Part shown: piece by piece, positions 45,404 to 63,103 of the stretch
Layout: every line of letters starts with the position of its first letter
How positions within the stretch are numbered: the stretch's first letter is position 1
Source: Ideonella aquatica
GTDB taxonomy: Bacteria; Pseudomonadota; Gammaproteobacteria; Burkholderiales; Burkholderiaceae_C
Direction: 5' to 3'
Assembly: GCF_018069755.1 (NCBI RefSeq)
Contig: NZ_JAGQDE010000022.1
Location: 1-63,863 of the forward strand
Length of the DNA: 63,863 nucleotides
Notes under the pieces: generated by a model
Databases searched by the model: none
The model's input: the letters and a program-made list of their open reading frames with translations, nothing else
Told to the model about the DNA's origin: nothing
Program-made: the position numbers and the translations under genes

Positions 45404-46189
45404 TTAGCTGGCGGCTACCGCGCGGCCGGCCAGCACCGGGATCAGTGCGGCGCGGTACTCGGCCGAGCCATGCAGGTCGCTGGACAGGCCGTCGGCGCTG
45501 ACCTTCACGCCCTGCGCGGCGGCGGCACTCCAACTGCCGCTCAGGGCCTGCTCGATGCCGCTGGCGCGGAAGACGCCGGCACCGGCGCCGGTCACCGCCA
45601 CGCGCACGCCTTGCGGGCCCTGGCTGACGAAAACGCCAACGATCGAGAAGCGCGAGGCCGGCTGCTTGAACTTCTGCCAGCCGGCCTTGGCCGGCACCGG
45701 GAAGCTGACCGAGACGATCATCTCGTTCTCTTCCAGCGCCGTGGTGTACAGGCCCTGGAAGAAGTCGTCGGCGGCGATGCTGCGGCGATCGGTCTTGATG
45801 GTGGCGCCCAGGCCCAGCACGGCGGCCGGGTAGCAGGCGGCCGGGTCGTTGTTGGCCAGGCTGCCGCCGATCGTGCCGCGGTTGCGCACCTGGCGGTCAC
45901 CGATGTTGCCGGCCAGGTCGGCCAGCGCCGGGATGGCCTGGCGCACGGCGGCGGATGCGGCGACCTCGGCATGGGTGGTCATCGCGCCGATGGTGACGGT
46001 GCCACCGCTGACGGTGATGCCCTTGAGCTCGGCGATAGCGCCCAGGTCGACCAGGCCCGAGGGCGCGGCCAGGCCTTGCTTCATCGCGGCCAGCAGCGAC
46101 TGGCCACCGGCCAGGAACTTGGCGTCGCCGCCGGCGGCGCCGACGGCGGCGGCCACCGAGGCCGGGTTCTGGTAGGCGAATGCTTGCAT
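45404..46189 (-). CDS. coxM: CoxM-like FAD subunit of molybdenum hydroxylase
   Basis: A 261-residue medium subunit. The two FAD-binding signatures are AGGQSLLAAMK at about residues 31-41 and TIGGSLANNDPAACYPA at about 107-123. The C-terminal domain is the CO-dehydrogenase flavoprotein C-terminal type. It passes electrons from the iron-sulfur subunit to an acceptor. It lies 24 bases downstream of coxL. The gene order is S-L-M, not the M-S-L order of classical CO dehydrogenase operons. Confidence 0.9.
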   Translation of the reverse strand: MQAFAYQNPASVAAAVGAAGGDAKFLAGGQSLLAAMKQGLAAPSGLVDLGAIAELKGITVSGGTVTIGAMTTHAEVAASAAVRQAIPALADLAGNIGDRQVRNRGTIGGSLANNDPAACYPAAVLGLGATIKTDRRSIAADDFFQGLYTTALEENEMIVSVSFPVPAKAGWQKFKQPASRFSIVGVFVSQGPQGVRVAVTGAGAGVFRASGIEQALSGSWSAAAAQGVKVSADGLSSDLHGSAEYRAALIPVLAGRAVAAS

Positions 46190-46213: not shown

Positions 46214-48565
<2,352 letters not shown>

Positions 48566-48583: not shown

Positions 48584-49048
48584 TCAGCCCTGGGCGGCCG
48601 CGCTGCGCACGGCCTTGACGATGTTCTGGTAGCCGGTGCAGCGGCAGATGTTGCCTTCCAGGCCGGCGCGCACCGATTCGTCGGAGGCCGCCCCATGGTG
48701 CTTCACCAGGTCGACCGCGCTCATCACCATGCCGGGGGTGCAGAAGCCGCACTGCAGGCCATGGCACTGGTTGAACGCCACCTGCATCGGGTGCAGCGTG
48801 CCGTCGGCGGCGGCCAGGCCCTCGATGGTCATGACATCGGCGCCGTGGGCCTGTACGGCCAGCATGTTGCAGCTCTTTACCGCGCGGCCGTTGAGGTGCA
48901 CGGTGCAGGCGCCGCACTGGGCGGTGTCGCAACCGACGTGGGTGCCGGTCAGGCGCAGTGTCTCGCGGATGAATTCGACGAGCAGGGTCTGCGGCTCGAC
49001 GTCCTTCGTGACGCTCTGGCCGTTGACCTTCAACGTGATCGTGGTCAT
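48584..49048 (-). CDS. coxS: CoxS-like [2Fe-2S] subunit
   Basis: A 154-residue subunit with two [2Fe-2S] clusters. Plant-type cluster cysteines are in [17 protein letters not shown] (about 41-57), and the second cluster is in [12 protein letters not shown] and [13 protein letters not shown]. The N-terminal [11 protein letters not shown] strand and the length are normal for the family. It carries electrons from the molybdenum subunit to CoxM. It is first in the operon; the gap to xdhC holds the shared palindrome. Confidence 0.93.
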
Positions 49049-49156
49049 GCCTTGTCTCCTGGCGGTTGGATGGCGTGCGGGTTCAGCCCCGCGACCGCGA
49101 CGATGCTAGGCAGGGCGCCGGTCCTTGGCTTGTCCCGGAAACACTTATGAAATCGC

Positions 49157-49210
49157 GTGCATGGGTGACAGTGCATGGGTGGGTTTGCGCGCTATGCAGG
49201 GATCTGCATA
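49157..49210. promoter_or_regulatory. Divergent regulatory region of cox operon and xdhC-like gene
   Basis: The 251-base gap between coxS (minus) and the xdhC-like gene (plus). At 49193-49210 lies a perfect palindrome TATGCAG-GGAT-CTGCATA. With its flanks it matches the palindrome at 62955-62978 in 18 of 22 positions, including the core TATGCA-N6-TGCATA. Just beside it is a direct repeat of 11 bases, GTGCATGGGTG at 49157-49167 and 49171-49181 (14-base period). Both are likely regulator sites. Confidence 0.6.
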
Positions 49211-49299
49211 AGGGAAAGACGCGCGCCTGCCCGACCGTGCCCAGGGGCCTAATGCGGCCTGAGGCTGCAGGGGCAGCGGACCCGGATCAGAATCGAGCG

Positions 49300-50301
49300 A
49301 TGGACAACGTGGATCTGCAGGTGCTGCGCCAGGTCGTGACCTGGCGCGAGGCCGGCCATGCGGTGGTGATGGGCACGATCACCCGCACCTGGGGCTCGGC
49401 GCCGCGGCCGGTGGGCGCGGTGGTGGCGGTGCGTGATGACGGCCAGATCGCCGGCTCGGTGTCGGGCGGCTGCATCGAGGACGACCTGATCGCCCGCATG
49501 CGCGAGAAGGCGCTGGTGGCCGATGCGCCGCAGGTGGTGCGCTACGGTGTGTCGGGCGACGAGGCCGCGCGCTTCGGCCTGCCCTGCGGCGGCACGCTGG
49601 AGCTGGTGCTGGAGCCGCTGGCGGCGCACAGCCTGGTCGAGGACCTGCTGCAGCGCCTGGCCAGCGGCCAACGCGTGCGGCGCACGCTGGACATGCACAG
49701 CGGCGCGGTCACGCTGGCCCCGGCCGAGGGTGCCGATACCGTGTTGCTGGACGAGACCACGCTGGTCTCCACCCACGGCCCGCACTGGCGCCTGATGGTG
49801 ATCGGCGCCGGCCAGATGACGGTCTACCTGGCGCAGATGGCGCAGGCGCTGGACTACCAGGTCACGGTCTGCGATCCGCGCGAGGAGTACCTGCCCGAGC
49901 TGCCCGGCGTGCAGCGCACCCGCGAGATGCCCGACGACGCGGTGATCGCGATGAAGCCCGATGCCCACACCGCGGTGATCGCCCTGACCCACGACCCCAA
50001 GCTGGACGATTTGGCGCTGATGGAGGCGCTCAAGAGCCCCTGCTTCTACGTCGGTGCGATCGGCTCGCGCGTCAACCAGGCCAAGCGCAAGCAGCGCCTG
50101 GCCGAGCACTTCGGCATGACCGAGGCCGAGCTGGCGCGGCTGCACGGCCCGGTGGGCATCAAGAACGGCGCGCGCACGCCCCCCGAGATCGCGGTGTCCA
50201 TCCTGGCCGAGCTGACGGCCATCCGCTACGGCTGGGCGATTCCCGAGCCCCGCTTCGTGGGCGGCGCGGCGACCAGCGTCACGGCCGGCTGCGTGGTGTA
50301 G
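49300..50301 (+). CDS. XdhC/CoxI-family maturation protein
   Basis: A 333-residue protein. The N-terminal XdhC domain has GHAVVMGTITRTWGSAPRPVG and SVSGGCIEDDLIARM, with the conserved Cys. The C-terminal part is a Rossmann domain with VIGAGQMTVYLAQMAQAL and ends IAVSILAELTAIRYG. XdhC-like proteins protect the molybdenum cofactor and insert it, often after sulfuration, into hydroxylases. The start at 49300 is the ATG of MDNVDLQVL; the long open frame upstream lies in the regulatory region. It is divergent from the cox operon. Confidence 0.9.
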   Translation: MDNVDLQVLRQVVTWREAGHAVVMGTITRTWGSAPRPVGAVVAVRDDGQIAGSVSGGCIEDDLIARMREKALVADAPQVVRYGVSGDEAARFGLPCGGTLELVLEPLAAHSLVEDLLQRLASGQRVRRTLDMHSGAVTLAPAEGADTVLLDETTLVSTHGPHWRLMVIGAGQMTVYLAQMAQALDYQVTVCDPREEYLPELPGVQRTREMPDDAVIAMKPDAHTAVIALTHDPKLDDLALMEALKSPCFYVGAIGSRVNQAKRKQRLAEHFGMTEAELARLHGPVGIKNGARTPPEIAVSILAELTAIRYGWAIPEPRFVGGAATSVTAGCVV

Positions 50302-50470: not shown

Positions 50471-52579
50471 ATGATTCGACACCACTGTTCCCTGCTCCGC
50501 CCTGTCGCGCTGGCCGCGCTGGCCGCTTGTCTTCCGTCCGTCCAGGCCCAGGACGCCGCCGCCACCCAGGTGGTGGTCAGCGGCAGCGCCGCGCCGCGCG
50601 CCGCCGACCTGGTGCCCTTCGCGATCGGCGTGGTCGACCGCGACACGATCAGCGCCGCCGGCCCGGGCATCAACCTCAGCGAGGCCATCGGCCGCGTGCC
50701 CGGCGTCGTCGTCAACAACCGCAGCAACTACGCCCAGGACCTGCAGATCAGCGCCCGCGGCTTTGGCGCGCGGGCCGGCTTCGGCGTGCGTGGCATCCGC
50801 CTGTACACCGACGGCATCCCGGCCAGCGGCCCCGACGGCCAGGGCCAGGTCTCGCAGTTCGACCTGGTCAATGCGCAGCGCATCGAGGTGCTGCGCGGGC
50901 CGTTCTCGGCGCTGTATGGCAACAGCTCGGGCGGCGTGATCTCGCTGTTCAGCGCGCCGGTCAAGGGCCCCGAGGCCGACTTCAGCGTCGACGGCGGCAG
51001 TGATGGCCTGCGTCAGGTGCGCGCCTCGGTGGGCGCCTTGACGACCGCAGGCATTGGCGTGCGCGCCTCGCTGACGCAGATGACGCTGGACGGCTTCCGG
51101 CCGCAAAGCGCCGCCAAGCGCACGCTGGGCACACTGCGCGGCGCCTGGGAAGAGGGCAACGACCGCGTCGTGCTGCAACTCAACCATCTGCGCCAGAACG
51201 CGCAGGACGCGCTGGGCCTGAACCGCGCCGACTTCGACGCCGATCCCTACCAGACCGCGCAGGTGGCGCTGGACTTCAACACCCGCAAGGAACTGGCCCA
51301 GACCCAGGTGGGCGGCAGCTGGACGCACCGCTTCGACGCCGGCGCGCTGCGCGAGGCCAGCCTGGCGGGCTACAGCGGCCAGCGCAGTGTGACGCAGTGG
51401 CAGGCCATCCCGGTGGCGGCGCAGGGCAGCCCGCGCCATGGCGGCGGCGTGGTCGACTTCGACCGCGGCTTCCATGGCGCCGAGGCCCGGCTGCGCTGGG
51501 GCTGGGACGCGCTGGACCTGGTGGTTGGTGCGGCGCTCGACAGCCAGCGCGATGACCGCCGCGGCTATGAGAACTTCATCGGCAGCACGCTGGGCGTGAC
51601 CGGTCGCCTGCGGCGCGACGAGGTCGACCGCGCCGACACCCGCGATGTGTTCGCCCAGGCCGACTGGCAGCTGAGCCCCACGCTGGCGCTGAGTGCCGGC
51701 CTGCGCCACGGCAAGGTCAGCCTGTCGGCGGATGATGCCTACCTGGCCAACGGCGACGACTCCGGCGAGGTCAGCTACACCTACACCAACCCGGTGCTGG
51801 GCCTGCGCTGGCAGGCCGCGCCAGGCTGGCAGTTGCATGCCAGCGTGGCCCGGGGTGTGGAGGCGCCCACGCTGGGCGAGCTGGCCTACCGGCCCGACGG
51901 CCAGGGCGGCTTCAACACCGCGCTGAAGGCCCAGACCAGCCGCCAGGCCGAGCTGGGTGCGCGCTGGCGCGCCCAGGCCTGGCAGCTCGATGCCACGCTG
52001 TTCCACACCCAGGTCGACGACGAACTGAGCACCGCCACCAACAGCGGCGGCCGCTCCAGCTTCCAGAACGTGGGCCGCACCCGCCGCCAGGGCGCCGAGC
52101 TGTCGGCCGCCTGGCGCCCGGCCAGCGGCTGGCGCGCGGCCACCGCGCTGACCTGGCTGGACGCCACCTACCTGGATGCCTTCAAGACCTGCGCTGGCAC
52201 GCCCTGTACCGCGCCCACCGCCGATGTGGCGGCTGGCAACCGCGTGGCCGGTGCGCCGCGCAGCACCGGCTTTGCCGAAGTGGCCTGGCGCGATGCGCGC
52301 TGGGGCGAATTCGGCCTGGAAGCGCGCGGCTCCGGCAGCGTGGCGGTGAACGACCGCAACACCGACTTTGCCGGCGGCTACGGCGTGCTGGCGCTGCGCT
52401 GGCGCAAGGCCTACACGCTGCCCGACGGCACCCGCGCCGAGTTGCTGGCGCGCGTTGACAACCTGGCTGATCGGGTCTACGCCGGCAGCGTGATCGTCAA
52501 CGACGGCAACGGCCGCTTCTTCGAGCCGGGCGCACCGCGCAGCGTGCTGCTGGGCCTGCGCCTGGGACTGGGGCGCTGA
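50471..52579 (+). CDS. pqqU: TonB-dependent receptor, PqqU (YncD)-like
   Basis: A 702-residue outer-membrane receptor with a leader of about 26 residues ending VQA. From memory of E. coli YncD/PqqU, the likeness is strong over the plug (NYAQDLQISARGFGAR, then GVRGIRLYTDGIP, VLRGPFSALYGNSSGG) and the last strands (RVDNLADRVYAGSVIVND and NGRFFEPG). PqqU is the established receptor for the cofactor pyrroloquinoline quinone. Its neighbours are two quinoprotein-relay proteins, which fits PQQ salvage. Identity was judged by eye, without alignment software. Confidence 0.75.
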   Translation: MIRHHCSLLRPVALAALAACLPSVQAQDAAATQVVVSGSAAPRAADLVPFAIGVVDRDTISAAGPGINLSEAIGRVPGVVVNNRSNYAQDLQISARGFGARAGFGVRGIRLYTDGIPASGPDGQGQVSQFDLVNAQRIEVLRGPFSALYGNSSGGVISLFSAPVKGPEADFSVDGGSDGLRQVRASVGALTTAGIGVRASLTQMTLDGFRPQSAAKRTLGTLRGAWEEGNDRVVLQLNHLRQNAQDALGLNRADFDADPYQTAQVALDFNTRKELAQTQVGGSWTHRFDAGALREASLAGYSGQRSVTQWQAIPVAAQGSPRHGGGVVDFDRGFHGAEARLRWGWDALDLVVGAALDSQRDDRRGYENFIGSTLGVTGRLRRDEVDRADTRDVFAQADWQLSPTLALSAGLRHGKVSLSADDAYLANGDDSGEVSYTYTNPVLGLRWQAAPGWQLHASVARGVEAPTLGELAYRPDGQGGFNTALKAQTSRQAELGARWRAQAWQLDATLFHTQVDDELSTATNSGGRSSFQNVGRTRRQGAELSAAWRPASGWRAATALTWLDATYLDAFKTCAGTPCTAPTADVAAGNRVAGAPRSTGFAEVAWRDARWGEFGLEARGSGSVAVNDRNTDFAGGYGVLALRWRKAYTLPDGTRAELLARVDNLADRVYAGSVIVNDGNGRFFEPGAPRSVLLGLRLGLGR

Positions 52580-52581
52580 CC

Positions 52582-53376
52582 ATGCTGCTGCGTCGCGACT
52601 GCCTGCGCTGGCTCGGGGCGGCCGCCGCGCTGGCCGGCGGCCTCGGCGCGCGCGCCGATGAGTTCGAGGGCGACCCCTACCGCTCGCACGTCTGGATCGA
52701 CATGCGCCGCGAGTACCTGGGCGGCGGGCGGGTGGTCTATGACCAGCGGGTGCAGGTGCAGGCCCCGGCCTTCGCCGAAGACCCGATGAACGTGCCGGTG
52801 AGCGTGCGTGTCGATCCGGCGCTGGGCCCGATCGAGCAGATTGTGGTGCTGGTCGACCGCAACCCGATCAAGCGGGTGGTGGCCTTCCAGCCGATGCTGG
52901 CGCTGCCCAGCCTGTCGCTGCGCTTCAAGCTGGAGCAGGCTTCGCCGATCCGCGCCGCCGCGCGCACCGCCGATGGCGTGTGGCACGTTGGCGGCACCGA
53001 GATCGACTCGGCCGGCGGTGGTTGCACGGTCAGCGGTGACAGCCGCAAGGACGGAAGCTGGTCGCGCACGTTGGGTGAGCTCAGCGGCCGCGTCTTTGCG
53101 CTGCAGAGCGAAGGCCCCTCCAGCCCGGCGGCGCGCTTGCGCCTGCGCGTGATGCACCCGATGGACACCGGCCTGGTGGGCGGTGTGCCGGCCTTCTTCG
53201 TCAACCGCCTGTCGGTGCAGGACGGGCAGGGGCGCGAGCTGGCCCGGCTGCAGGCCTTTGAGCCGGTCAGCGAGAACCCGGTGTTCAGCCTGGATTTCCG
53301 CAGCCCGCCCGCGGGTGGCGTACGCATCGTGGGCGCCGACAACAACGGCAACCGCATCGACGGACGGCTCGAATGA
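52582..53376 (+). CDS. Quinoprotein-dehydrogenase-associated SoxYZ-like carrier
   Basis: A 264-residue exported protein. The leader (MLLRRDCLRWLGAAAALAGG) ends near residue 25. The body is a SoxY-like plus SoxZ-like tandem: SVRVDPALGPIEQIVVLVDRNPIKRV and the late MHPMDTGL and VFSLDFRS. The carrier cysteine is in GGGCTVSG. This family is found beside PQQ-dependent alcohol dehydrogenase genes and is thought to belong to their periplasmic relay. It lies two bases after pqqU and overlaps the next gene by four bases. Confidence 0.85.
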   Translation: MLLRRDCLRWLGAAAALAGGLGARADEFEGDPYRSHVWIDMRREYLGGGRVVYDQRVQVQAPAFAEDPMNVPVSVRVDPALGPIEQIVVLVDRNPIKRVVAFQPMLALPSLSLRFKLEQASPIRAAARTADGVWHVGGTEIDSAGGGCTVSGDSRKDGSWSRTLGELSGRVFALQSEGPSSPAARLRLRVMHPMDTGLVGGVPAFFVNRLSVQDGQGRELARLQAFEPVSENPVFSLDFRSPPAGGVRIVGADNNGNRIDGRLE

Positions 53377-54368
53377 AGTGGCCCGGTCTCCAGACGCCCC
53401 TGGGCGCGCTGCTGTTGGCCTGTGCGCTGGTGGCGCTGGCAGCGCTGCCCTCGTGCGTGCAGGCCGCGCCCGACGTGGGCACGCAGGACTACCGACTGCA
53501 GGCGCGCGCGCTGGCGCCCGGCGTGTGGGTGGTCGAAGGCGCGAACGACGACTTCAGCGTGGCCAATGGCTGCAACATCATCAACACCGGCTTCATCGCC
53601 ACCGGTGCGGGGGTGGTGGTCATCAACACCGGCCCGAGCCGGCTGTATGGCCAGCAACTGCGCGCCCTGATCGCCCGCACCACGCCCGAGCCGGTGGTGC
53701 AGGTGCTGCAGCTCAACCTGCACCCCGACTACTTCCTGGGCGACCAGGCCTTTGCCGACGTGCCACGGCGCGCCACCGCCACCACGCGGGCCGGCGTGGC
53801 GCGCGAAGCGGCCGCCTACGAAACCAACCTCTACCGCCTGTGCGGCGACTGGATGAAGGGCACCGAGACCCTGGCGCCCGACACCGACCTGGTGGTGCCG
53901 CCCGAGGGCCTGCGCTGGCGCATCGGCTCGCGCGAGCTGGAGTTGCGCGAGTGGCGCGGCCACACCGATTCCGACCTGGTGCTGTTCGACCGCGCCAGCG
54001 GCGTGGCCTTCGTCGGCGGCCTGGTCTTTGCCGACCGCATTCCCACCACGCCGCACGCCCGCATCCCCGACTGGCTGGCCAGCCTGGACGCGCTGCAGAC
54101 CCAGGGCCTGCGCACCGTGGTCCCCAGCCATGGGCCGGTGCACGAGGGCACGCGCGGCCTGGCACAGACGCGGCGCTACCTGCAGTGGCTGGACGGCCAC
54201 TTTCGCCGCGCCGCGCAGCAGGGCTGGGAGATGAACGACCTGCTGCGCGCGCCCGTGCCCGACGAATTCCGCGCTTGGGCCGCGTTCCGCACCGAGTACG
54301 TGCGCAACGTGGCCCACCTGTATCCGCGCTACGAGCGCGAGGCGCTGGCCGCCGCGTCCCGGCGCTGA
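53373..54368 (+). CDS. Quinoprotein relay system metallo-beta-lactamase-fold protein
   Basis: A 331-residue exported MBL-fold protein with a leader of about 32 residues. The usual HxHxDH motif reads NLHPDY (LQLNLHPDYFLGD), so one histidine is replaced by Asn and the last by Tyr. WRGHTDSDLVLFD and VPSHGPVH, which carry the later metal ligands, are kept. The family is called quinoprotein relay system zinc metallohydrolase. The missing ligands suggest altered metal binding or a non-catalytic role. Its stop is six bases from the convergent regulator gene. Confidence 0.8.
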   Translation: MKWPGLQTPLGALLLACALVALAALPSCVQAAPDVGTQDYRLQARALAPGVWVVEGANDDFSVANGCNIINTGFIATGAGVVVINTGPSRLYGQQLRALIARTTPEPVVQVLQLNLHPDYFLGDQAFADVPRRATATTRAGVAREAAAYETNLYRLCGDWMKGTETLAPDTDLVVPPEGLRWRIGSRELELREWRGHTDSDLVLFDRASGVAFVGGLVFADRIPTTPHARIPDWLASLDALQTQGLRTVVPSHGPVHEGTRGLAQTRRYLQWLDGHFRRAAQQGWEMNDLLRAPVPDEFRAWAAFRTEYVRNVAHLYPRYEREALAAASRR

Positions 54369-54374
54369 CCGGGC

Positions 54375-55508
54375 CTACTCGGCAGCGTGGCGGGCCTCGT
54401 GCGCTTCCTTGCGGGTGCGGAAATGCCACCAGGGCAGGGCCCGGGTCAGCGACAGCACCTCGCCCGGCGTGTTCAGCGCATAGCCCGGCAGCGCCGAGAC
54501 GGCGTTGTGCATCGGCGTGCCTGCCAGGGCCTCGCACAACTGCTGCACCGCCGGATGTTCCAGCGCATCCTTCAGGCAGACCAGGAAGTAGTCTTCCTCG
54601 ACCAGGGGCACCAGGTCCAGGCCGAACTGCTCGGCCGCCGCGGCAATGCCCACGCCGACGTCGCCCAGGCCGCTGGCGATGGCCGCGGCCACGGCCAGGT
54701 GGCTGTCTTCCACCGCGTCGTGGTAGCGCGGCACGAAGCTGCTGGACAGGCCTTGCTGGGCCAGCAGGTGATCGGTCAGCAGCCGGGTGCCCGAGCCTTC
54801 CTGGCGGTTGATGAAGCGCACCGAGCCGCTGGCCAGGTCCGCCAGGCCGCGCAGGCGCAGCGGGTTGCCGCGCGCCACCATCAGGCCCTGGGTGCGCCGG
54901 GTGCAGCCGATCAGCTTGTGCACGCCGGGCTTGAGCAGCGGCTTGAGCGCCTCGGCGAACAGGTTGCGTGCGTCCTCCAGCGGCGGGACGTGGAAGCCCG
55001 CCACGGTGCAGCGGCCCTCGGACAGCGCGCGCAGCGCGTCCATGCTGCCGGCAAAGCGCAGGTCGATGTGCAGGCGGTGGTGCTCGGCGGCCACCTCGCG
55101 CAGCGCCGGCAGCGCCAGGTCATGGCTGGCGTAGATGGTGAGCACCTGGTGGCTGCCATCCAGCGCCTCGGCCAGCACGCGCTCCAGCTCGGAGCGCAGG
55201 GCCTCGATGTGCGGTGTCATGCGTGTGCGGGCGCGCGCCTCGGCCCACAGCAGGCGCTCGGCAAAGGGTGTCAGCCGGGCCGGCTGGCCCTTGGCCCACA
55301 GCACCAGCGGCTCGCCGATCACCTGCTCCCACTGCTTGAGCGCGCCCCAGACGTGGCGGTAAGAGGCGCCGGTGGCCGTGGCCGCGTGCTGGATCGAGCC
55401 GTGCTGACGCAGCGCCGAGAGCAGGTCGAACAGCGGGTTCTGGATGTCCGCGCCGCGCTGGCCGTCCGACTGGAAGCTGTATTGAAGGTGAACGCCGCGG
55501 GATTTCAT
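54375..55508 (-). CDS. ModE-like HTH regulator with PBP-type ligand domain
   Basis: A 377-residue regulator. Residues about 20-95 are a ModE/LysR-type winged helix: NPLFDLLSALRQHGSIQHAA, then SYRHVWGALKQWEQ and QPARLTPFAERLL. The rest, from about 120 to 350, is a periplasmic-binding-protein-like domain (PBP_like), with TIYASHDLALPAL, VAGFHVPP, FINRQEGSGTRLL and HLAVAAAIASGLGDVGVG. Such proteins are thought to sense an anion or cofactor-like ligand. The start is the ATG at 55508 (MKSRGVHLQYS). It is divergent from the RavA-like gene and is the only regulator in the AOR and cox region. Confidence 0.82.
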   Translation of the reverse strand: MKSRGVHLQYSFQSDGQRGADIQNPLFDLLSALRQHGSIQHAATATGASYRHVWGALKQWEQVIGEPLVLWAKGQPARLTPFAERLLWAEARARTRMTPHIEALRSELERVLAEALDGSHQVLTIYASHDLALPALREVAAEHHRLHIDLRFAGSMDALRALSEGRCTVAGFHVPPLEDARNLFAEALKPLLKPGVHKLIGCTRRTQGLMVARGNPLRLRGLADLASGSVRFINRQEGSGTRLLTDHLLAQQGLSSSFVPRYHDAVEDSHLAVAAAIASGLGDVGVGIAAAAEQFGLDLVPLVEEDYFLVCLKDALEHPAVQQLCEALAGTPMHNAVSALPGYALNTPGEVLSLTRALPWWHFRTRKEAHEARHAAE

Positions 55509-55587: not shown

Positions 55588-56975
<1,388 letters not shown>

Positions 56976-56979
<4 letters not shown>

Positions 56980-58463
56980 CCAGCGCCGGGCCGATCGATC
57001 GGCCCTATGACGCGCTGGCCGGGCTGCCCCGCGGCCTGTGGTTGGGCAGCCTGGTCAATGCCACCGGTGAACGCACTGCCCGCCTGCGTGACGCCGGGCG
57101 CTGGCTGCAGGCACTGACCGCTGGCGATCTGCCGCCCGCCGATGCCGATTTCGGCGATGCCGCGGCGGCGGCCGCGCTGCGCCAGGTCGTGGGCGAGCTG
57201 AAGCTGCCGGCCATGGGCCGCGGCGTGCCCTCGCTGGCCGAGCAGGTGCTGCGCGCGGTGCTGTGGCACCTGGACCGCATCGCCGACCACCAACCGCGCC
57301 TGACGCGGGACGAGGCCATCGCCGAGGTGGCCGCCGAATTCAGCGCGGCCTGGCAGTTCGAGACGCAGGGCCTGGAGGAATCGCTGGCCCTGCTGCAGGG
57401 CCTGGGCGACCTGGCGCAGCTGCGCTGGGACGAGCTGCGCGGCCAGCTCAGCGGCCGGCCCTGGCAGGCCGCGCGGCGGGCCGCCGACTGGCTGCAGCAG
57501 CTGCCCGAGCTGGCCGCGCTGATCCGCCGCCTGGGCCGTGCCGAACGCAGCGCGCAGCCGCTGCTCCAGGCCGCGCCGCCCGAGCCCGGCGACCAGGCGC
57601 CGGTGCCGCTGCGTCCGGTCGAGACCCGCCTGCCCGATGCGCCGGGCGAACTTACTGGCATCCATTTCACCGGCCGTCCCGAGCGCATGCTGGCCAGCGA
57701 GGCGGTGATGCTGCGCCACCCGGTGCTGCGCCGTCTCTGGCGCGCCCGCCATGCCGAGTCGCGCCTGCTGGGCTGGGACAGCGAAGCGGTGCTGATGGAC
57801 TGGCGCCCCGACCCCGCCGGCCGCCCCCAGGCCAGCACGTCGCCGCGGCGCGACGAGGCGCTGGAGCGCGGGCCGATCGTGCTGTGCCTGGACACCTCGG
57901 GCTCGATGCGCGGTGCGCCCGAGAACGTCGCCAAGGCCGTGGTCATCGCGGCCTTGCGCGCCGCGCACGAGGCCGGGCGGGGCTGCTGCCTGATCGCCTT
58001 TGGCGGCCCGGGCGAGCTGGTGGAGCGCGAGCTGGGCACCGGTACGCAGGGCCTGCGCGCGGTGCTGGACCTGATGGGCCAGGGCTTCGATGGCGGTACC
58101 GATGTGCAGACGCCGATCGAGCGGGCCATCGAGCGGGTCCATGAGGCGCGCTGGCGCAGCGCCGATGTGCTGGTGGTCAGCGACGGCGAGTTCGGTTGCG
58201 TCCCGGCCACGCTGGCGCGCCTGGACCAGGCCCGCGCTGAGCTGGGCCTGCGGGTGCAGGGCGTGCTGGTGGGCGACCGCGAGACGCTGGGTCTGCTGGA
58301 GGTTTGCGACGACATCCACTGGGTGCGCGACTGGCGCCGCTACGCCGATGCCGCCGAGGGGGGCGATGGCCGCGGCTACTCGCCGGTGCACAGCAAGAGC
58401 CTGACGGCGCTGTACTTTCCGAACGCGCTGTCGGCGCGGGCCGCGAAGCACGCGCCGCGCTGA
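56976..58463 (+). CDS. ViaA-like VWA-domain protein
   Basis: A 495-residue protein. The N-terminal part (to about 310) is helical, with no named domain. The VWA domain (about 315-480) has the metal-ion motif LCLDTSGSMRGAPE, GFDGGTDVQTPIERA and LVVSDGEFG. It is the expected ViaA-like partner of the RavA-type ATPase. The GTG at 56976 forms a GTGA overlap with it. It converges on the small gene at the end of the AOR operon; its stop is part of a shared stem-loop. Confidence 0.85.
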
Positions 58464-58479
58464 GCCGCTCATCGGCTCA
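58461..58479. terminator. Shared stem-loop made from two convergent stop codons
   Basis: TGAGCCG and CGGCTCA form a perfect 7-base stem around CTCAT. The outermost bases are the TGA of the VWA gene and, on the other strand, the TGA of the small AOR-operon gene. It looks the same on both strands, so it could act as a compact bidirectional terminator, although it has no T run. Confidence 0.5.
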
Positions 58480-58782
58480 GCCGCCGCCCTTCTGCATGAA
58501 CAGGTCGAAGCGCTTCATGAAGCGCTGGCGGGCCTCGGCGCTGATCCCGTCGAAGCGGTAGCGCACGTGCATCTGCGGCAGCTGGATCAGCGCGATGCGC
58601 CGGGGCGGCAGCACCTGCCAGTCGATCTGCAGCGTGCCGCCATCGATCGGCACACGGGCCTGATGGACGCCGAGCTGCAACGCGTGGGGCTCGGCCGCGC
58701 CGGGCAGCTGGGCCAGCCATTCAGCCTCGGTGCAGCCGTGCTCGCGCTCGAAGTGTTCGGTGTAGGTGGCCGGATCGAACAC
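58477..58782 (-). CDS. Small protein of the AOR operon, unknown function, Gly-rich C-terminus
   Basis: A 101-residue protein starting, most likely, with GTG at 58780-58782 (FDPATYTEHFEREHG follows). It ends FMKRFDLFMQKGGG. The middle is beta-rich (GTLQIDWQVLPPRRIALIQLPQMHVRYRF). I do not recognise a named family. The gene follows the MoaD-like gene by seven bases, so it belongs to the AOR operon. It ends in three glycines, as the MoaD-like protein ends in two. A frame extension to 58881 only shadows the MoaD-like gene. Confidence 0.65.
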   Translation of the reverse strand: MFDPATYTEHFEREHGCTEAEWLAQLPGAAEPHALQLGVHQARVPIDGGTLQIDWQVLPPRRIALIQLPQMHVRYRFDGISAEARQRFMKRFDLFMQKGGG

Positions 58783-58789
58783 GGGTGCG

Positions 58790-59044
58790 TCACCCGCCGG
58801 CGATAGGCGGCCAGATCGCCAGCACATCGCCTTCAACCAGCGCCAGCGTGGCGCGGTCTTCGGGGGCCACGTAGCGGCCATTGACCAGCACCAGGTGCAC
58901 CAGCTTCATCGGCAGACCGAAAGGCTCGATGACCTGGGCGATGGTGGCGGCGTCCGCCACGTTCAGGCGCACCTCGTTGCCCGGCGGGCGGTCGAGCGGC
59001 AGGTACTGGGCCAGGCTGGCGTAGAGCTTGAAGGTGATCTGCAT
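58790..59044 (-). CDS. MoaD/ThiS-like sulfur carrier (AorD-like)
   Basis: An 84-residue ubiquitin-like protein. It begins QITFKLYASLAQYLP and ends EGDVLAIWPPIAGG, with the free C-terminal Gly-Gly that is activated and thiocarboxylated in MoaD and ThiS. The start at 59044 (MQITFK) fits the fold; the longer ORF begins inside a stem-loop. Its place in an aldehyde oxidoreductase operon suggests a dedicated sulfur carrier for the tungsto-pterin cofactor, as in the aor operon of Aromatoleum aromaticum. Confidence 0.82.
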   Translation of the reverse strand: MQITFKLYASLAQYLPLDRPPGNEVRLNVADAATIAQVIEPFGLPMKLVHLVLVNGRYVAPEDRATLALVEGDVLAIWPPIAGG

Positions 59045-59057
59045 GTCGGGCGACAGT

Positions 59058-59086
59058 GTCGTGCAAGGCGCAAGGCCTTGCACGAC
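59058..59086 (-). promoter_or_regulatory. Stem-loop between the FAD oxidoreductase and MoaD-like genes
   Basis: A perfect 12-base stem (GTCGTGCAAGGC and complement) closes a five-base loop. It fills most of the 55-base gap between the aorC-like stop and the MoaD-like start. There is no T run on the minus strand, so it is more likely an mRNA-processing or stabilising element than a terminator. Confidence 0.6.
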
Positions 59087-59099
59087 CGGGTCCTCTGCC

Positions 59100-60470
59100 T
59101 CAGGCCTTCACATGGGCCTGTTCGCCCTGCGCCTGGGCGCAGGCCAAGTAGGCTTCCATCAGCAGCGTGGGTTCCTTCAGCAGGCGTTCGCGCCAGTCAC
59201 CCAGCTTGACCTGGCCCTCGACCAGGCCGCGCATCACGCCGACGTGCTCGGTCCAGCCGATGGCGTTGCAGCCGATCAGCTTTTCGTCGTCGAACTGCAG
59301 GCTCAGGTGGCGGCCGGCGGCCTCGTCGGTCTGCTCGACATGCGCGCCACCGTCCACACCGTCCCACTTGCCGAAGCTGGCCGAGATCATGCCCAGCGTG
59401 TCGAGCACGTTGATCTGGGTGACGCCCTTGAGCTCGGTGGTGCGGCCGACCATGTTGAGCGCGGCCACGCGGGCCTGCTCGGCGGCGTTGGGCTGGATCG
59501 CGCTGACGATGGTGCGGCCGGTGACCTTGTCGAAGGCCTCGGCGCAGTCGCCGGCGGCGTAGATGCCCGGCACATTGGTCTGCAGATGCTCATCGGTCAG
59601 CACGCCCTGCAGGCAGGTGATGCCGCTGTCCTGCAGGAAACCGATGTTCGGGCGCACGCCGGTGGCGCTGATGACCAGGTCGGCCTCCAGCACTTGGCCG
59701 GTGGACAGCTTCACGCGCATCGGTGCGCCCGCCGCCGCTGCGGGGGCCGGCGCGGGCGCGCTGCCCAGGCCGAAGGCGTTGGCGATCTTCCCCAGCAGGC
59801 CGGGCTCGGCGGCCGGTGCGGCCGCCGCAGCGCCAGGGCGCTCGATCGCCTCGACCCGGGCGCCGGTGAAGACCTTCACGCCCTTGCGCTCGACCCATTC
59901 CTTGATCATGCGGCCGGCGGTGGGGCCCATCATGCGCGGCACCATGCGGTCGCCCATCTCCACCACGGTGAGCTGCACGCCGCGCGTGGCCAGCGCTTCC
60001 ATGATGATGCAGCCGATGAAGCCCGCACCCAGCTGCAGCACGCGCGCACCCGGCTTGGCGCTGGCCATGATGGCGCGCGCGTCGGCCAGGGTCCAGCAGC
60101 TGTGCACGCCGGGGCCGTCGATGCCCGGGATGGGCGCGGTGGCGGGCGAGGAGCCGGTGGCGATCAGCAGGCGGTCGAAGGACTCGCGGCTGCCGTCGGC
60201 CAGCACCACGGCCTTGCCGGCGACATCCACCTGGGCGGCCTGGCCACGCTTGAGCGTGATGCCCAGCTGCGCGAAGTGGCCGGTGGTGTGGCGCAGGTGC
60301 GTGCCTTCTTCGCCCACCTTGCCGATCAGCAGGTAGGGAATGGCCATGCGCGAGTAGGGCGCCTCGGGCTCGTCGCCGATGACGACGACGCTGTCCTGGG
60401 GGGCCTGCTTGCGCAGGGTCTCGGCGGCGATGATGCCGGCCGGGCCGGCGCCGAGGATGACGTGCTTCAT
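59100..60470 (-). CDS. FAD-dependent NAD(P)-disulfide oxidoreductase (AorC-like)
   Basis: A 456-residue flavoprotein. The FAD motif is ILGAGPAGIIAAETL at about residues 5-19, the NAD motif is VLQLGAGFIGCIIMEAL at about 143-159, and the second FAD motif is GIYAAGDCAEA. It should hand electrons between the ferredoxin-like subunit and NAD(H), as AorC does in Aromatoleum. An Ala/Pro-rich insert of about 40 residues (around GLLGKIANAFGLGSAPAP) interrupts the NAD domain. It is separated from the AOR gene by an intrinsic terminator. Confidence 0.85.
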   Translation of the reverse strand: MKHVILGAGPAGIIAAETLRKQAPQDSVVVIGDEPEAPYSRMAIPYLLIGKVGEEGTHLRHTTGHFAQLGITLKRGQAAQVDVAGKAVVLADGSRESFDRLLIATGSSPATAPIPGIDGPGVHSCWTLADARAIMASAKPGARVLQLGAGFIGCIIMEALATRGVQLTVVEMGDRMVPRMMGPTAGRMIKEWVERKGVKVFTGARVEAIERPGAAAAAPAAEPGLLGKIANAFGLGSAPAPAPAAAAGAPMRVKLSTGQVLEADLVISATGVRPNIGFLQDSGITCLQGVLTDEHLQTNVPGIYAAGDCAEAFDKVTGRTIVSAIQPNAAEQARVAALNMVGRTTELKGVTQINVLDTLGMISASFGKWDGVDGGAHVEQTDEAAGRHLSLQFDDEKLIGCNAIGWTEHVGVMRGLVEGQVKLGDWRERLLKEPTLLMEAYLACAQAQGEQAHVKA

Positions 60471-60537: not shown

Positions 60538-62385
60538 TTACAGGCCCAGGCGCGAGCGCGTTTCGGGCTTCAGCTGGCCGTTGTTGTCCCAGCCACGCAG
60601 CTCGTAGTACTTGGGCAGCATCTCGGGCAGCTTGCTGACCAGGCCCTTGGCGGGACCGGTCTTGGCCGGCTCTTCGAGCAGGCGCTTGGGCAGCGTGTCG
60701 TCCTTGGCGGTGAAGCCGGCCTGGTTGTTGAAGTCGCGCTCCATGTTCCAGATCCGCTCGCCGATCTTGGCCATGTTCTCGAGGGTGAACTCGGGACCGC
60801 AGGCAGCAGCCACCTGCGGCGCGACATCGGCCAGACCCCAGGCGAAGCTGGTGAAGATGCAGATGCCGGCGGCGTCGAACGCGGCGGTGGCGTCCTGGAA
60901 GGCGATGACCAGCTCGGGCTTGCCGTCGGCCGTCAGCGGATCGGTCTTGACGGGGATGCCCAGCACCTCGGAGGCCACGGTGTAGCTGCGCAGGTGGCAG
61001 GCGCCGCGGTTGGAGGTGGCGTAGGTCAGGCCCATGCCCTGGATGCCGCGGCCGTCATAGGCCGGGAACTCTTGGCCCTTGACGCTCATGCTCAGCTCGG
61101 GGTGGCCGTACTTCTCGCACAGGCGCTTGGAGCCCTGGCCGATCTCCTTGCCGAAGCCTTCGCCCTTGGCGGTGATCTCGGCGAAGTAGGCCAGCGCCTG
61201 GGCCGAGCCGAACTTGGCGTCGATGCCCAGTTGCTCCTGGGTCAGCACGCCCATCTGGTAGAGCTCCATCACCGCGCCGACGGTGGCGCCGAAAGTGATC
61301 GGGTCCATGCCCTGCTCGTTGCACAGCACGTTGGCGTACTGCAGCGCTTCCAGGTCGTTGACGCCGTTGGCGGCGCCCAGGGCCCAGGCGGCTTCGTACT
61401 CCAGGCCGCCCGAGGCGCCCCAGTACTGCGGCTTGTTCTCGACGGTGAAGTGGCCCTTGTCGATCTTGCTGATGCGGCCGCAGGCGATGGTGCAGCCGAA
61501 GCAGGCCTGGTTGGTCACCAGGTGCGGCTTGCCGTCGCTGGCGCGCGGGGTGGCCATGGCTTCGGCGGAGATGTCCTTCGCGCCTTCGAACTGCACGTCC
61601 TGGAAGTTGCGGGTGGGCAGCGCGCCGACCTCGTTGATGACGTTCATCAGCACCTGGGTGCCGTAGGTCGGCAGGCCCTGGCCGGTGACGGCGTTGTCGT
61701 GCAGGATCTTCTTCTTCTCGGCGGTGACCTTGAAGAACTCCTTGGCGTCGGCCAGGTTGCCCACGCCCTTGGTGCCACGCACCACCACGGCCTTGAGGTT
61801 CTTGCTGCCCATCACGGCGCCGACGCCCGAGCGGCCGGCGGCACGGTGCAGGTCGTTCACCACGGCGGCGAACAGCACCTGGTTCTCGCCGGCCAGGCCG
61901 ATCGAGGAGACGCGCACCAGCGGGTCCTGGTGGGTCTTGTGGATCGTGGCCTCGGTCTCCCAGACCGACTTGCCCCACAGGTGCGAGGCGTCCTTCAGCT
62001 CGGCCACGTCGTCGACGATCGACAGGTACACCGGCTTGGGCGACTTGCCCTCAAAAATGACCATGTCCCAGCCGGCCATCTTCAGCTCGGCACCCCAGTA
62101 GCCGCCCGAGTTGGAGCAGGCGATGGCGCCGGTCAGCGGGCCCTTGGTGACGACGGTGTAGCGGCCGCCGGTGGAGGCCATGGTGCCGGTCAGCGGGCCG
62201 GTGGCCCAGATGATCTTGTTGTCAGCCGACAGCGGATCGACCTTCGGCGAGATCTCGCTGGTCAGGTACTTGGAGGCCAGGCCGCGCGAGCCCAGGTACT
62301 CCTTGGCCCAGTCCATGCGCAGCGGCTCGGAGGTGACGGCGCCGGTGGTCAGGTTGACGCGGAGGATTTTTCCAGCCCAGGACAT
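60538..62385 (-). CDS. aorB: Aldehyde:ferredoxin oxidoreductase (AorB-like, probably tungsten)
   Basis: A 615-residue catalytic subunit, full length for the family. It begins SWAGKILRVNLTTG and carries ATGPLTGTMASTGGRYTVVTKGPLTG, a pterin-binding region. The [4Fe-4S] cysteines are in CFGCTIACG at about residue 290 and in AAGICIF near residue 490. AGRSGVGAVMGSKNLKAV and NRGACHLRSY are family signatures. AORs oxidise aldehydes to acids and use a tungsten bis-pterin. AAGGAG eight bases before 62385 decides the start. It follows the ferredoxin gene by 25 bases. Confidence 0.93.
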   Translation of the reverse strand: MSWAGKILRVNLTTGAVTSEPLRMDWAKEYLGSRGLASKYLTSEISPKVDPLSADNKIIWATGPLTGTMASTGGRYTVVTKGPLTGAIACSNSGGYWGAELKMAGWDMVIFEGKSPKPVYLSIVDDVAELKDASHLWGKSVWETEATIHKTHQDPLVRVSSIGLAGENQVLFAAVVNDLHRAAGRSGVGAVMGSKNLKAVVVRGTKGVGNLADAKEFFKVTAEKKKILHDNAVTGQGLPTYGTQVLMNVINEVGALPTRNFQDVQFEGAKDISAEAMATPRASDGKPHLVTNQACFGCTIACGRISKIDKGHFTVENKPQYWGASGGLEYEAAWALGAANGVNDLEALQYANVLCNEQGMDPITFGATVGAVMELYQMGVLTQEQLGIDAKFGSAQALAYFAEITAKGEGFGKEIGQGSKRLCEKYGHPELSMSVKGQEFPAYDGRGIQGMGLTYATSNRGACHLRSYTVASEVLGIPVKTDPLTADGKPELVIAFQDATAAFDAAGICIFTSFAWGLADVAPQVAAACGPEFTLENMAKIGERIWNMERDFNNQAGFTAKDDTLPKRLLEEPAKTGPAKGLVSKLPEMLPKYYELRGWDNNGQLKPETRSRLGL

Positions 62386-62410: not shown

Positions 62411-62887
62411 TCAGGCCGCGGCCTGTTGGTTGCCCAGCTTGTTCGCCCAGGCCTGCATCTTGTCGATGCCGGTCCAGTTGGCGTCGACGTAGGTGATCGC
62501 GCCGGTGGGGCAGGCGTCGGCACAGGCCGGCTCGCCGCCGCACAGGTCGCACTTCTGCACCTTGCCGGTTTCCTGGACGTAGTTGACGGTGCCGAAGGGG
62601 CAGCTGATCGTGCAGACCTTGCAGCCCACGCAGGTGCTCTCGGCCACCACCTTGGCGCCGGTGGCCTTGTCCACCGTGATCGCCTCGACCGGGCAGGCGT
62701 GCAGGCACCAGGCCTCATCGCACTGGGTGCAGGTGTAGGGCACCTTGCGACCGGTCTCGTGGAAGTCGAACACGCGGATGCGCGAGCGGGCGGTGGCGAA
62801 CACGCCGTAGTTCTCGTAAGAGCAGGCCATTTCGCACTGCCGGCAACCCGTGCACTTGTCCGGGTTGATGTGAAGGCTCTTCTGCAT
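62411..62887 (-). CDS. aorA: Four-cluster ferredoxin subunit (AorA-like)
   Basis: A 158-residue protein with four [4Fe-4S] sites. Cysteine groups are in CTGCRQCEMAC, CTQCDEAWCLHACP, CVGCKVCTISCP and CDLCGGEPACADACP. It is the electron-transfer subunit that links the AOR to its flavoprotein, as AorA does in Aromatoleum aromaticum. The start at 62887 (MQKSLHINPDKC) has GGAGA upstream; the frame runs to 62932 without support. It is the first gene of the AOR operon. The shared palindrome is about 70 bases upstream. Confidence 0.9.
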   Translation of the reverse strand: MQKSLHINPDKCTGCRQCEMACSYENYGVFATARSRIRVFDFHETGRKVPYTCTQCDEAWCLHACPVEAITVDKATGAKVVAESTCVGCKVCTISCPFGTVNYVQETGKVQKCDLCGGEPACADACPTGAITYVDANWTGIDKMQAWANKLGNQQAAA

Positions 62888-62954: not shown

Positions 62955-62978
62955 GGCTATGCAATGATCTGCATAGCC
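62955..62978. promoter_or_regulatory. Palindrome upstream of the AOR operon
   Basis: GGCTATGCA and TGCATAGCC form a perfect inverted repeat with 9-base arms and the spacer ATGATC. It lies in the 215-base gap between aorA and imuA, about 68 bases upstream of aorA. It nearly equals the palindrome at 49193-49210 upstream of the cox operon (18 of 22 positions). The pattern CTAT/ATAG around a six-base centre is faintly like the ModE consensus. A separate 12-base palindrome, TACCCCGGGGTA, is at 62991-63002. Confidence 0.65.
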
Positions 62979-63066
62979 TCTGTCAACGCCTACCCCGGGG
63001 TAACCCGAAATGCTGTGCGGGTATCTGAGGCAGGTGTGCCAGTCTGGTACGTCACGCGCCAATGCC

Positions 63067-63103
63067 TTGCCGGCGAGGGGGTGGATACTGTATAAATATC
63101 CAG
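63067..63103 (+). promoter_or_regulatory. SOS-type promoter of imuA with LexA box
   Basis: TTGCCG at 63067-63072, an 18-base spacer and TATAAA at 63091-63096 form a sigma-70 promoter. A LexA-type box, CTGT-N8-CCAG, lies over its -10 element at 63088-63103 and is one base off the CTGT-N8-ACAG consensus. The expected transcription start falls at about 63103, which is the first base of the imuA GTG, so the message may be leaderless. Confidence 0.7.

Follow-up and report, generated by a model that had tools for sequence, protein, structure and literature searches.

A conserved palindrome shared by tungsten and molybdenum enzyme operons of Ideonella aquatica, a candidate operator of a tungstate/molybdate-sensing regulator

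Introduction

This work deals with a palindromic DNA element, named W-box in this analysis, which lies upstream of the tungsten-type aldehyde oxidoreductase (aor) operon of Ideonella aquatica, and with the regulator that would bind it. The window is the whole analysed stretch of 63,863 nucleotides (contig NZ_JAGQDE010000022.1 of assembly GCF_018069755.1). Tungsten enzymes are usually associated with anaerobes, and a search of the open-licence literature gave no recognisable account of tungsten sensing, or of the separation of tungsten (W) and molybdenum (Mo) traffic, in betaproteobacteria.

The closest described system is TaoR. The DNA-binding domain of this regulator (Rajeev et al. 2019) is reportedly excisionase-like, and in the presence of tungsten the protein is reported to activate aor and to repress the tungstate uptake genes (tup). 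The candidate regulator of the W-box, here called REG, carries a DNA-binding domain of the HTH_1/ModE type in place of the excisionase-like domain reported for TaoR. Since the sensor type and the targets are common to both and the DNA-binding domain differs, REG is regarded as a variant, and not as a member, of the TaoR family. The likeness (HTH plus PBP-like sensor, and a link to aor and tup genes) is taken from passages of PMC11980592 in which TaoR is presented as an HTH and PBP-like regulator of the tungsten aldehyde oxidoreductase; in passages of PMC10102598 a gene named for tungstate uptake, tupR, appears. As for the enzyme, PMC6365974 describes in Aromatoleum aromaticum EbN1 the subunit genes aorABC with a pair of small genes, aorD and aorE, after them, and the gene order of the Ideonella aquatica operon is alike; the words 'regulator' and 'promoter' are absent from the main text of PMC6365974.

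ModE is the other system to which the locus has to be compared. REG has a weak match to the ModE DNA-binding model, and the W-box (GGCTATGCA-N6-TGCATAGCC = 24 bp) has the operator span of the Mo-box. However, REG has no TOBE match and a PBP_like sensor in its place, the targets lean to tungsten genes and the genome has a separate ModE; the proposed REG operator has ModE-like spacing but a TATGCA arm.

The W-box and its copies in the genome

The aor-side W-box, at 62955-62978 (GGCTATGCAATGATCTGCATAGCC; no strand assigned, as for the other boxes), is a perfect palindrome with 9-base arms, GGCTATGCA and TGCATAGCC, and a 6-base spacer; 67 bp separate its near edge from the start codon of aorA. On the cox side, the region 49190-49213 (CGCTATGCAGGGATCTGCATAAGG) in the gap between coxS and a divergent xdhC-like gene holds the exact core TATGCA-N6-TGCATA at 49193-49210, found by pattern scan, and both boxes are identical in 18 of 22 positions (counted by hand). 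Direct reading thus bears out the palindrome and the shared core that a first-pass annotation, made from the sequence alone, had reported. The same pattern scan placed a second, degenerate box with 2 mismatches in the coxS/xdhC gap (49146-49163), at a distance to coxS similar to that of the coxS box in relatives; neither this box nor the genomic copies outside the window had been noticed in the first-pass annotation.

Because the window contains 6 perfect 9-6-9 inverted repeats, the hairpin by itself is no proof and the evidence is the repeated core. This core occurs 2 times in the window against 0.00027 expected, and 3 times in the genome against 0.022 expected per 5.17 Mb (first-order Markov model, window composition), whereas a reversed control pattern gave 0 sites in the genome scan at up to one mismatch. 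A chance palindrome was rejected on the basis of the Markov expectation and the reversed-pattern controls. The third exact copy is located between moeA and tupBCA, the tungstate transporter genes. All three exact copies (3/3) are therefore at Mo/W loci (aor, cox/xdhC and moeA/tupBCA), and the genome scan proposed in the first-pass annotation revealed no random scatter of exact copies. The MoeA protein is above its Pfam cut-offs; TupB reaches 143 bits with its NCBIfam model, below the 320-bit cut-off, TupC owes its name to position and similarity, and TupA was identified by eye in its reading frame.

Three further copies have one mismatch. The first precedes a formate dehydrogenase operon; the second lies between exaC (NF050026, 945 bits, cut-off 900) and a gene for a sigma-54-type activator, here called AcoR-like; the third is inside a tRNA-like sequence, recognised by eye, and is taken as chance. 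If two mismatches are allowed, the forward pattern gives 19 sites and the reversed control 6, so that most sites of this kind have to be seen as noise when they stand alone. Beside a paralogue of REG there is another formate dehydrogenase gene pair (L007:10616-15165; beta 54% and alpha 62% identical to L096), the gap of which has only a two-mismatch box.

Conservation in relatives

A scan with AorA gave 80 loci, 79 of them with usable upstream regions (up to 300 bp), and the best site before aorA had at most one mismatch in 43/79 and at most two in 58/79; the corresponding values were 0.05% and 0.4% in 3,950 shuffles, and 1.1% at up to two mismatches in random windows of the AorA loci, some of which include other real boxes. 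When distinct 250-bp promoters were counted, using only the loci retrieved with AorA (that is, not chosen by the box) and up to two mismatches, the box was present in 57/78 aorA promoters, a positive answer to the check on orthologous aor operons suggested in the first-pass annotation. It was also found in 30/32 promoters of tupB, 6/6 of moeA, 4/7 of coxS, 1/2 of xdhC and 10/23 of REG. Upstream of internal operon genes no box was found at the same threshold (0/176: tupC 0/33, aorB 0/57, aorC 0/70, coxL 0/7 and coxM 0/9), although these upstream stretches are mostly coding and differ in composition from promoters. The counts of the full set (tupB 53/55, aorA 66/87, moeA 9/9, REG 20/64, coxS 6/10) are inflated because those regions were picked around exact sites or regulators. 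It has to be considered as well that the relatives are not independent of each other and that species overlap between the two genome sets.

Formate dehydrogenase and exaC were scanned in 28 genomes chosen for REG or boxes. Among the 22 of 26 formate dehydrogenase loci that passed a frame check, 13/22 upstream regions of 800 bp had a box (shuffles, 0.23%). For exaC, the 15 best loci, taken without shuffle control, had a best site with one mismatch in 4/15 and with two in 3/15, at 211-304 bp upstream of the gene, and exaC is likely a member of the regulon.

Among 299 genomes of the family, 64 hold the exact core, with 74 copies in all. Nineteen of the 74 have the spacer ACYRGT or nearly so; at L129 and L131, the two loci where the neighbours were inspected, one flanking gene is of the PadR type (Pfam on L129) and the other is oxidoreductase-like by eye. 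This class is treated as the box of another regulator. Of the remaining 55 cores, 41 are at aor, tup, moeA, formate dehydrogenase, fds, cox, modA-like or regulator genes and 14 were filed as 'other', the adjacency classes being assigned by hand; the doubtful cases (G262, G024, G106 and G183) were rechecked and upheld, the gene adjoining the G183 site being modA-like (31% identity). One of the 'other' sites, at L111, is 69 bp upstream of an SBP_bac_11 gene.

The exact copies of relatives that belong elsewhere (the 19 of the PadR-type class and the 14 'other'), together with the 6 inverted repeats of the window, are what could be expected if the two copies were a chance resemblance or a mobile repeat. 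This explanation is highly improbable, given three genome copies against a Markov expectation of 0.022 and a strong footprint at orthologous promoters that contradicts chance. Sequence comparison shows that the box is conserved, has a consistent target set and is linked to one regulator family. The earlier proposal of one shared regulator for a Mo/W (perhaps aldehyde) regulon is supported by this comparative evidence. There are more targets than the 'small Mo/W or aldehyde regulon' described there would have, with a bias towards tungsten (tup, moeA, aor, formate dehydrogenase).

Some other features of these promoters can be mentioned. Upstream of the aor box, relatives keep an element like AGGGTT...GC..AGGT, represented here by CTACCCCGGGGTAACCCG at 62990-63007, which may be bound by a second regulator. 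Of 46 tupB promoters, 40 have their best -10-like hexamer at 23-24 bp (20 cases) or 37-38 bp (20 cases) after the box, a geometry that needs mapped start sites to inform on the sign of regulation and was set aside.

The candidate regulator

The gene of REG occupies 54375-55508 of the minus strand with its stop codon included (54378-55508 otherwise) and encodes an HTH_1 domain of the ModE/LysR type (29.9 bits, cut-off 26.6) joined to a PBP_like sensor domain (PF12727, 189.3 bits, cut-off 27). It matches the NCBIfam model ModE_repress (TIGR00637) weakly, with 38.7 bits under a cut-off of 98.5; no TOBE match was found in Pfam, and no excisionase-type HTH in the Pfam or NCBIfam tables. REG shares with LysR-type regulators the HTH_1 domain, an effector domain like a type II PBP and a linker helix of some length, and its best full-length fold matches are proteins of this type. 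However, PF12727 is a far better match than LysR_substrate (28 bits, exactly at the cut-off of 28), and the 18-bp core of the box is an even-length dyad that misfits the centred T-N11-A box. A reading of the box as a sigma-54 or T-N11-A element was also tried by eye and did not fit. The sensor domain has an oxyanion-binding fold. With phmmer, 7 matches were obtained in the PDB, all of them weak (E-values of 0.26 and above), and aligning REG to TupA by profile revealed no similarity; by eye, INRQEGSGT in REG resembles ISRGDKSGT in TupA.

Several observations link REG with the box. An exact box is found within 75 bp of the regulator start in 11 of the 299 family genomes, at 10 REG orthologues and 1 paralogue, and REG stands beside tup or aor in many loci. 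Among 35 genomes with metal-linked boxes, 31 carry REG; the others are G024, G106, G163 (only 70% complete) and G183. At L303 a one-mismatch box overlaps the predicted start, besides 15 of 20 loci, in a comparison that had no shuffle control. In the Ideonella aquatica genome the paralogue of REG (C56:193911-194918) adjoins the second formate dehydrogenase pair. No box was found before REG itself in this genome, and its autoregulation there was rejected on that ground.

The box is most probably (probability about 0.8) the operator of a tungstate/molybdate-sensing one-component regulator, namely REG and possibly also its paralogue. The gene at 54375-55508, already singled out in the first-pass annotation, is by these comparisons the best candidate. 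In such a mechanism a REG dimer would contact both TATGCA arms, as ModE does at its own box, and tungstate, perhaps also molybdate, would set its activity from the PBP domain. REG would then fit tungstate import, cofactor insertion and the synthesis of W/Mo enzymes to the metal supply; by analogy with TaoR, the metal-loaded form may activate aor and repress tup. With the box defined and a candidate for its regulator named, tungsten sensing in betaproteobacteria becomes testable, and the annotation of tungsten metabolism in Burkholderiales gains a starting point.

ModE as an alternative

Alternatively, the box might be an ordinary Mo-box, recognised by the canonical ModE, whose consensus has drifted, and the regulator with the PBP domain might be a bystander. 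The genome does have a ModE, the 24-bp span is that of the Escherichia coli modA operator, many tupB promoters have the right arm ACATA of the same operator, and in G163 a ModE-like gene adjoins the box that precedes fds. Nevertheless, 21/35 genomes with metal-linked boxes, G058 and G002 (both 100% complete) among them, have no ModE orthologue at an E-value cut of 1e-12, applied by hand, genomes without a listed match being counted as ModE-less. Furthermore, 0/30 ModE loci (ModE plus 1.5 kb on each side) contain a box at up to two mismatches, and exact boxes adjoin REG or its paralogue.

The ModE of this genome, with two TOBE stretches, is beside a modA-like gene (by eye). Its score with TIGR00637, 70.4 bits, is also under 98.5, and this cut-off is consequently strict for this group. 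The modA-like gene is preceded by a different, Mo-box-like sequence, CGTGATGTCTTCGATAACATAACG, which closely resembles the modA operator of E. coli. Comparison with Mo-boxes is weak in general, with only 2/30 ModE loci having a Mo-box-like sequence within 3 mismatches of the pattern used. The statement that the site is only faintly like that of ModE has to be corrected: the box has the span of the E. coli operator, and a separate Mo-box-like sequence is kept before the modA-like gene. Control of the box by ModE is unlikely as a general explanation; it may take place in G163 and G183, since both have a ModE.

Aldehyde enzymes and the metal

The promoter regions of aor, cox and exaC all carry the box in the Ideonella aquatica genome, with one mismatch for exaC. 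Neither cox nor exaC encodes a tungsten enzyme, and ExaC is an NAD-dependent dehydrogenase that is not known to need a Mo/W cofactor. Aldehydes are substrates of Aor, of ExaC and possibly of the CoxL-like enzyme, 7/15 relatives have box-like sites at exaC (up to two mismatches), this gene adjoins REG in two other families (L304 and L305), and the acoR-like activator gene adjoins the exaC site here. A site for an aldehyde-responsive regulator, with the metal link as secondary, would agree with these facts, but it is improbable: the tungstate transporter stands out as the tightest target (tupB 30/32), moeA and the formate dehydrogenases are also targets and do not act on aldehydes, and the REG sensor has an oxyanion-binding fold.

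With REG as a metal sensor, a tentative extension is that a single tungstate sensor chooses among aldehyde oxidisers of differing metal need: Aor (W), the form II CoxL-type enzyme (Mo) and ExaC. If true, this metal-driven choice would parallel, for tungsten, the switches between equivalent proteins that depend on zinc or on lanthanides.

Enzyme operons and neighbouring genes

The aor operon, on the minus strand, has the composition of a three-subunit bacterial aldehyde oxidoreductase operon, with 4Fe-4S, AFOR and flavin subunits and small maturation genes. It comprises aorA (62411-62887), for a ferredoxin-like 4Fe-4S subunit recognised by family search; aorB (60538-62385), for the tungsten-type large subunit with AFOR_N and AFOR_C domains; aorC (59100-60470), for a Pyr_redox_2 flavin subunit (Pfam); aorD (58790-59083), ThiS/MoaD-like by Pfam and NCBIfam; and aorE (58477-58881), the second small gene, named by position and with no match in Pfam or NCBIfam.

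The cox genes, on the same strand, are coxS (48584-49048; 2Fe-2S subunit), coxL-like (46214-48565; molybdopterin subunit, by family search) and coxM (45404-46189; FAD-binding subunit), and the xdhC-like maturation gene (49300-50301) is on the plus strand, divergent from coxS. The motif AYRGAGR of the CoxL-like protein is of the form II type. The protein matches 13 NCBIfam families, the carbon monoxide dehydrogenase models included, and stays under the cut-off of each of them; the earlier name 'cox' is to be read as CoxL-like.

On the other side of the aor gap, divergent from aor, lies imuA (NF033429, 181.8 bits, cut-off 150), preceded by the LexA-like sequence CTGTATAAATATCCAG at 63088-63103. 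Control of imuA by the aor box was considered unlikely, since imuA has this sequence of its own and the box accompanies aorA in relatives.

Other boxes were seen in relatives. At L129:9251-9308, L130:9624-9681 and L131:9400-9469 there is a distinct box, TATGCAACYRGTTGCATA, frequently doubled, which represents the PadR-type class of 19 exact cores mentioned above. At L121:9621-9638 and L126:9724-9741 the box ACTATGCA-N6-TGCATAGT adjoins a MerR-type gene (Pfam on L121, by eye on L126). Palindromes such as TCGCTATGCAaAGCTTTGCATAGCGA at L127:2218-2235 and L120:9913-9930, present twice each in G271 and G084 and once in G116, are possibly a repeat element.

Between REG and aor (55588-58463) there are a bpMoxR-type ATPase gene and a ViaA-like VWA gene (below cut-off). 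Near REG, at 50471-54368, are encoded a PqqU-like receptor (below cut-off) and a quinoprotein relay metallohydrolase (TIGR04558, above cut-off), and near moeA, at L001:6798-8534, a pyrroloquinoline quinone (PQQ) alcohol dehydrogenase (TIGR03075). These PQQ-related genes agree with an aldehyde-producing pathway.
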